Positions 30,416 to 32,240 of a stretch of 32,240 nucleotides of DNA are shown one piece after another; the first letter of the stretch is position 1; each line of letters begins with the position of its first letter. This DNA is from Candidatus Zambryskibacteria bacterium RIFCSPLOWO2_01_FULL_35_19. GTDB lineage: Bacteria; Patescibacteriota; Minisyncoccia; Phycocordibacterales; WO2-35-19. A program made the translations under genes and the position numbers. Under the pieces are notes generated by a model. The model was not told where the DNA came from and did no database searches. It worked only from the letters and a program-made list of their open reading frames with translations. The stretch spans positions 1 to 32,240 of the forward strand of contig MHWA01000015.1 in the NCBI GenBank assembly GCA_001825335.1. The letters run 5' to 3'.

Positions 30416-30422
30416 TCTTTTG

Positions 30423-30495
30423 TGCGCGCACTAGGGGTCGAACCTAGGACCTTTCGAGTATCAGTCGAATGCTCTACCAGCTGAGCTATGCGCGC
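30423..30495 (-). tRNA. tRNA-Ile (anticodon GAU)
   Basis: A 73-nt cloverleaf on the minus strand. The acceptor stem GCGCGCA pairs with TGCGCGC, the anticodon stem TTCGA/TCGAA encloses loop CTGATAC (anticodon GAT), and the T arm is CTAGG-TTCGACC-CCTAG. The discriminator is A. CCA is not encoded (CAA follows), unlike tRNA-Ala in this window. It lies about 1 kb downstream of the 16S gene on the same strand, a likely remnant of a classical 16S-tRNA-Ile-23S order. Confidence 0.95.
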
Positions 30496-30657: not shown

Positions 30658-30915
30658 TCATCGGCGGAATGATCGCAAGTCCCTCATGGGTCTTGGGATC
30701 ATGTGGTGGCTGAATTCGTGTTTGTTCGTTGCTCGCTTGAAGCGTAGGGCTAAGTGTAGTAGCCCAGCTTTTCCAAGGAAGAAAATTGAGGAGAAGGAGG
30801 CGGGGCTTATCAATGCCTCATACCCACCTCTACCAAAATCGTAGCCACTTATGAATGCACAAATGGCTGAAATGATAATACAGCTGTCTCTGGCTATTTT
30901 CAGAAATCTATTCAT
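30658..30915 (-). CDS. Small membrane protein of unknown function, SD-led (second gene of cassette)
   Basis: About 85 aa from the chosen start MNRFLKIARD. A hydrophobic segment CIIISAICAFISGYDF is a probable transmembrane helix. A second, weaker one covers FSSIFFLGKAGLLHLAL, and the tail is basic (FKRATNKHEFSHH...RDLRSFRR). No family recognised. The start at 30915 is set by a good SD, AGGAGATC, 6-7 nt upstream. An alternative Met at 30936 overlaps the previous stop as ATGA, which would couple translation. Base composition is richer in G+C than core genes. Confidence 0.6.
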   Translation of the reverse strand: MNRFLKIARDSCIIISAICAFISGYDFGRGGYEALISPASFSSIFFLGKAGLLHLALRFKRATNKHEFSHHMIPRPMRDLRSFRR

Positions 30916-30932
30916 GATTGATCTCCTCTTCT

Positions 30933-31205
30933 TCATCGATGCGTCGGAGCAATGGAACTCGCCTCATTGATGCGATCGATTATTTTTTGTCTGTTGCAAT
31001 CCAGACAGATTTTCTTGTAGCCACGCCAGATGAAAAAACTTAACAAAGCAGTGAGATACCACATGGCGACGATAGTCATCAATGGTACCCACTCGTTGAT
31101 GATGATGGACCAAAATTCAATGGTTAACCATAATATGGTAGATACCATTATTATGATCGATACCAAGCAAACGACTAAACAAAGCCGTTTTTGTTGTAGT
31201 GACAT
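30933..31205 (-). CDS. Small two-TM membrane protein with CxxC, SD-led (first gene of cassette)
   Basis: 90 aa. Two hydrophobic helices are clear: LCLVVCLVSIIIMVSTILWL, and about WVPLMTIVAMWYLTALLSFFIW. A short basic cytoplasmic tail follows with CLDC (CxxC), which could bind metal or be redox-active. No family recognised. It is preceded by an extended -10/-35 promoter and a perfect SD GGAGGTGAT, identical to that of the 130-aa secreted protein at 731 and unlike all core genes here. It overlaps or abuts the next gene (ATGA). Confidence 0.7.
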   Translation of the reverse strand: MSLQQKRLCLVVCLVSIIIMVSTILWLTIEFWSIIINEWVPLMTIVAMWYLTALLSFFIWRGYKKICLDCNRQKIIDRINEASSIAPTHR

Positions 31206-31479: not shown

Positions 31480-31513
31480 CCCCACACCACTTTTTTAAAA
31501 AAGTGATGTGGGG
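31480..31513. repeat. 34-nt palindrome abutting the 16S 3' tail
   Basis: As RNA (minus strand) the two 17-nt arms pair completely with one U-G wobble, forming CCCCACAUCAC-U6 against A6-GUGGUGUGGGG. It begins 20 nt past helix 45. Its A/T core and ACACCAC arm resemble the dispersed 40-nt repeat at 6975 and 20303. It may be a processing stem or an inserted repeat. Confidence 0.65.
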
Positions 31514-31520
31514 ATCTTCA

Positions 31521-32240
31521 CCTTGAAATATTCCACGAACAGCTTCCGCTACCCGTGCCTTGTTACGACTTAGTCCTTGTTATTGAGTTTACCTTAGTCC
31601 CACTTACGTGAGCCTTTGGGTACTCCCAACTTCCCTGACTTGACGGGCGGTGAGTACAAGACTTGAGAACGTATTCACCGCGGTATAGCTGACCCGCGAT
31701 TACTAGCGATTCCAACTTCAAGAGGTCGAGTTTCAGCCCTCTATCCGAACTGGGGCCATTTTTATAGGATTAGCTCAAGCTTACGCTGTCGCGACCCGTT
31801 GTAATGACCATTGTATTATGCGTGTAGCCCAAGGCGTCAAGGGACATGCTGACCTGGCGTCATCCTCGCTTCCTCCCAGCACCAAACCAACGAAGTTGGT
31901 TTGCAAATTCGAAATTCGAATATCGAAATTCAAAACAAATTCAAAATTTTTAAATTTAAAAATTAAAAACGTTTCGGATTTCGGATTTCGTGCTTCGGAT
32001 TTGCACCAAGCTCTGCGAGCTTGGTGCTGGGTAGTCTCGGCTGACACTTGTAACAGCCAACGAGGGTTGCGTTCGTTACCCCACTTAAGGGAACAATTCA
32101 AATCACGAACTGACGACGGCCATGCATCACCTGTCTATCTGTCCTTGTGAGACTCCAAACGTTTCTGCTTGGATTCAGATAGATTTCTAGCCTTGGTAAG
32201 GTTTTTCGTTTAGCATCGAATTGAACCGCATAATCCACCG
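31521..32240 (-). rRNA. rrs: 16S ribosomal RNA, 3' portion (5' part outside the window), with helix-40 insertion
   Basis: Covers the equivalent of E. coli about 936 to the 3' end. Universal blocks are present (reverse complements on the plus strand): GACGGGCGGTGAGTACA, TTGTTACGACTT, ACTAGCGATTCCAACTTCA and the 1100-region GGGTTGCGTTCGTTACCCC. Helix 45 is intact as CACGGGUAGC-GGAA-GCUGUUCGUG (31534-31557). The tail after it reads GAAUAUUUCAAGG and lacks the expected GAUCACCUCCUU, so no anti-SD is visible. The 3' end was set 13 nt after helix 45 by analogy. A 151-nt insertion lies at 31878-32028. No 23S follows; the transcript ends at 31281-31309. Confidence 0.95.
31878..32028 (-). repeat. Insertion element inside 16S helix 40
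   Basis: The loop of helix 40 (E. coli ~1165-1171) is replaced by 151 nt. AGCACCAA/TTGGTGCT at its ends lengthens the native CCAG/CTGG stem. Inside are AAACCAAC-GAA-GTTGGTTT (31884-31902), a perfect 11-bp GCACCAAGCTC-TGC-GAGCTTGGTGC hairpin (32003-32027) competing with the closing stem, and an AT-rich middle made of TTCGAAATTCGAA- and CGGATTTCGGATTTCG-like repeats. There is no ORF of its own, and no group I or II intron core was recognised. Confidence 0.85.

Follow-up and report, generated by a model that had tools for sequence, protein, structure and literature searches.

A 16S rRNA 3' tail without the anti-Shine–Dalgarno sequence in an order of Zambryskibacteria-like Parcubacteria

Almost all bacteria use the anti-Shine–Dalgarno (anti-SD) tail of the 16S rRNA to find gene starts, and that tail is among the most conserved of bacterial sequences. 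Its loss is already known in several phyla (PMC6107228; PMC10783764). The former refers to 128 organisms without CCUCCU, such as Chryseobacterium, Mycoplasma, Carsonella, and Hodgkinia; and Table 4 of the latter includes SD-scarce organisms without CCUCC—namely, Campbellbacteria, Wolfebacteria, Absconditabacteria SR1, and Peribacter. In Flavobacterium and other Bacteroidota, translation proceeds without SDs and is tuned by the upstream nucleotides and the structure of the mRNA (PMC6847099).

The lineage analysed here shares with the organisms of PMC10783764 a 16S rRNA devoid of CCUCC along with a scarcity of SDs; but whereas the entries in that paper are single genomes, here the loss extends over an order, a decay of the tail recurs within the class, Era is absent, and the tail covaries with the trailer. 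The likeness to the organisms of PMC6107228 is that the anti-SD and the SDs have been lost together; those organisms, however, belong to other phyla and include several host-restricted symbionts, and the tails of Hodgkinia are reported there to be variable, in contrast to the conserved replacement tail of the present order. With the Bacteroidota, in turn, the order has SD-less translation in common, although the anti-SD is kept in the former (PMC6847099) and lost in the latter.

The window—by which we mean the whole stretch of 32,240 nucleotides that was analysed, from a tiny, uncultured bacterium—carries on its minus strand the 3' part of a 16S rRNA gene (31521..32240; model positions 930-1533 in cmscan with RF00177, 456.8 bits, E 3.3e-142), the 5' part being missing because the contig end at 32240 falls inside the gene. 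Helix 45 with its GGAA tetraloop (31534..31557, minus strand) reads CACGGGUAGC-GGAA-GCUGUUCGUG from 31557 to 31534 and is intact, with 10 base pairs, three of which are G.U; direct reading and the fold bear out the statement of the initial annotation that the helix is well formed and the register secure, and since the conserved GUCGUAACAAGG and helix 45 could both be placed, the register of the tail is certain. The helix is followed, in the 5' to 3' direction, by GAAUAUUUCAAGG, UGAAGAU, and a palindrome with a 15-bp stem. The 13-nucleotide tail GAAUAUUUCAAGG (31521..31533, minus strand) stands in place of GAUCACCUCCUUU, and CCUCC is found neither in it nor in the hairpin that comes after; the annotation had the tail and its coordinates right. 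The reading, the cmscan result, and the tails of relatives agree on this point, so that the absence of the anti-SD from the window is confirmed. Between tail and palindrome lies a small stem of 4–5 bp, UUCA-AGG-UGAA (31527-31517, minus strand), which joins the former anti-SD site to the trailer and which was recognized by the fold and by covariation in the class. The palindrome that the annotation had noted after the tail is likewise there (31513-31480, minus strand; 34 nt, with a 4-nt loop), as established by reading, folding, and comparison with relatives, in which other trailer hairpins take its position. A tRNA-Ile(GAU) is located downstream of the 16S gene (30422..30495, minus strand). 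The window 16S also contains an AT-rich insert of 146 nt at helix 39, at about 31880-32030, which insert is missing from the 16S of the same-genus relative L019 (total 1542 nt).

The examination of relatives' 3' ends that the annotation had proposed gave a uniform answer: none of the 28 same-order 16S loci that could be read had CCUCC directly after helix 45, and most of their tails resemble UGGA(A/U)UAUUUCAA. The sequence UGGAAUAUUUCAAGGUGAA is identical in the window, in four same-genus loci, and in one same-family locus, and because the tail turns up again in other genomes at the genus, family, and order levels, chance is excluded as its origin. Among named genomes, the pattern GGAWTATTTCAA after helix 45 was present in 79 stretches—some of which coincide with the same-order genomes just mentioned—from Zambryskibacteria, Taylorbacteria, Yonathbacteria, and Campbellbacteria, among others. 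The Campbellbacteria chromosome CP011215.1, which matches the tail pattern UGGA(A/U)UAUUUCAA, would appear to be the Campbellbacteria genome of PMC10783764 and, judging from that tail, to belong to the same order. In the class sample all the tails from the order lacked CCUCC save that of one rRNA contig, an apparent contamination. Of the 163 class genomes whose tail could be read, about 58 kept CCUCC, and elsewhere in the class there were graded forms, for instance GAUCAUCUCC, GAACAUUUCC, and GAUUUUCUCC; in the phylum's other classes, 83 of 88 genomes kept the motif. In a 16S tree built quickly from 111 rows and containing several long branches, the order fell within a clade of 54 CCUCC-less rows, and the presence and absence of CCUCC required six changes, four of them forced by starred branches. 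The order-wide extent of the loss, its repetition within the class, the scant use of SDs even by sampled members whose anti-SD is intact, and the retention of a pairing between tail and trailer lay beyond the view of the initial annotation.

Since the tail used for finding starts is gone, translation must start in another way. In statistics that took the first ATG as the start codon and, for the source genome, covered 317–329 kb of 510 kb, SD cores at -20 to -4 were near the control level in the source genome and in three other members of the order; for comparison, SD cores accompanied 65% of the annotated E. coli starts versus 15% in the control. The pairing energy of the source genome's own tail upstream of starts did not differ from that of shuffled tails (z -0.4), and no gain in tail-to-mRNA pairing was present in three other order members, the corresponding E. 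coli value being -4.1 kcal/mol versus control regions. Of three anti-SD-bearing members of the class that were sampled, two had neither an SD signal nor a gain in pairing and the third had a weak SD signal; as these members barely use SDs, weak SD use probably preceded the loss of the anti-SD in the class. Sequences upstream of the starts are rich in A, and 51–58% of the genes have U at -1; the motif TAnnnT, a candidate -10 element, peaks at -12, where it occurs in the source genome 42 times versus 9.3 expected, an excess overstated by a background (-60 to -19) less AT-rich than the near-start region. These features would fit the hypothesis of leaderless or short-leader starts; TAnnnT at -12 also precedes apparently operon-internal genes, however, and for that reason may not always represent a promoter.

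The claim that the core genes are without SDs holds for most genes but not as an absolute: strong SD-like motifs precede ATG-ORFs in the source genome (329 kb) in 48 instances versus 20 expected, about twofold over permuted motifs, and, within the order, in the spacers that follow the 16S gene in 23 versus 6.2, almost fourfold. Two such ORFs, both small orphans on the minus strand, are in the window: one of 90 aa in the 16S-tRNA spacer (30933..31205), preceded by the strong SD GGAGGUGAUAAAUG, and another of 92 aa from its listed start (30658..30936), in which another AUG in the same frame, seven codons further on, has GAGGAGAUCAAUC before it. Both are membrane-like, the first with TATAAT just upstream, and they may constitute acquired DNA or else be read in some other way. 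In the relative L019 other small ORFs, likewise SD-led, take that position. The stretch L071 (G000:C1:1-20000) has a higher GC content (0.39), an outlying tetramer make-up, and many SD-led genes, and may have been acquired or belong to a contaminating contig; the notion that all the SD-led ORFs come from that one foreign contig was rejected, since the excess remains without it.

The best explanation as a whole is, in our judgment, very probably that the anti-SD has truly been lost from the 16S rRNA of the Zambryskibacteria-like Parcubacteria and that the loss is inherited throughout the order. The annotation had left the choice between such a loss and a repeat insertion or misassembly, and only the former has stood. 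A misassembly or repeat insertion at the gene's 3' end, confined to the window contig, might be suspected from the long palindrome after the tail, the 146-nt insert, and the contig end within the gene; but in independent genomes, at the genus, family, and order levels alike, an identical or similar tail stands in front of different hairpins, and the palindrome occurs only once in the 329 kb of the source genome, where it does not form a repeat family, so that we assign this explanation next to no probability. Scarcely more credible is that the assembly missed another, normal-tailed copy of the 16S, even though the genome is 91% complete, the 16S is truncated at the contig end, and the strong SDs before some ORFs would with such a copy become readable. 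The search for helix 45 in the source genome, at that completeness, yielded a single match, without CCUCC after it, and therefore no second, normal-tailed 16S of the kind that the annotation had named as contrary evidence; and nearly complete members of the order display only CCUCC-less tails. One order member (G169) does possess an extra 16S with CCUCC, but that copy is on a 4-kb rRNA contig and is 91% identical to the E. coli 16S over 219 nt; we rejected it as a true copy, the contig being a probable contaminant. That contig (L319; G169:C6) consists of a 16S 3' end, two tRNAs, and a 23S.

The pairing of ribosome and mRNA could alternatively persist through an altered or displaced anti-SD, located either in the new tail AUAUUUCAAGG or in a run of pyrimidines beyond the small stem, in keeping with the conservation of that tail across the order, the pyrimidine runs of some same-genus trailers (AUCCUCC in L024), and the strong SDs kept by some ORFs. 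In four anti-SD-less genomes, however, the regions upstream of starts were not enriched in sequence complementary to the genome's own tail, and CCUCC within 75 nt after helix 45 was encountered in 2 of 96 order loci, with 1.5 expected; accordingly, both a substitute SD matching the new tail and a displaced CCUCC in the trailer, whose frequency is at the chance level, were rejected, and we regard the whole proposal as quite improbable. Somewhat more room, though as a tentative and on balance doubtful idea, may be given to the possibility that the order replaced the anti-SD by a new conserved tail, UGGA-N-N-A-N-UUCAA, with a role of its own as a binding site in either 3'-end maturation or initiation, the few SD-led ORFs persisting and being read otherwise.

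Era is a GTPase that recognizes GAUCACCUCC. It is absent from most CPR (PMC10582724), and in our searches none of 112 class genomes had an Era match over the cut-off, whether the anti-SD was kept or not, whereas 10 control genomes did; the matches obtained in nearly every genome were discarded as being below the cut-off and, among the matches listed, as covering the GTPase domain only. YbeY was present in 31 of 32. A Pfam search for bS21 gave no match in the window's genus, but a small basic protein adjoining ybeY in the source genome has a weak likeness to bS21 (E 0.36), and mainly because of its synteny with clearer bS21 genes, that neighbour looks like a divergent bS21.

In CCUCC-bearing members pairing between the anti-SD site and the trailer is frequent (CUCCUU-UCU-AGGGAG), and many CCUCC-less members form other short stems at the same place (UUUCA/UGAAA, UUCCA/UGGAA, UCUCUU/AAGAGA). 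Tail-trailer stems exceeded those of shuffles in the CCUCC-less tails (z 6.8), and own arms exceeded swapped ones with z values of 7.7 for all the tails and 6.0 for the CCUCC-less ones, in a comparison that ignores relatedness; within the order alone the signal is modest (z 2.4). From these stems we infer that the pairing may have a role in the formation of the 16S 3' end.

A history consistent with these observations would be that the class cut back SD-led initiation and lost Era while CCUCC was still there, which changes would have freed the tail from most of its constraint and permitted its decay in several lineages. The remaining constraint would be tail-trailer pairing, probably in forming the mature 3' end together with YbeY. 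Starts would then be located without 16S-mRNA pairing, either on mRNAs that have no leader or a very short one or through an A-rich, unstructured upstream region with U at -1.

In the literature searched we found no description of an order-wide anti-SD loss in Parcubacteria, Patescibacteria, or CPR, most subscription papers and preprints being outside that search, so that an earlier report may exist. In such genomes, gene prediction guided by SD motifs may place starts wrongly, and a class in which intact, decaying, and lost tails coexist constitutes a natural series for asking whether SD pairing, Era, or processing is what conserves the tail.
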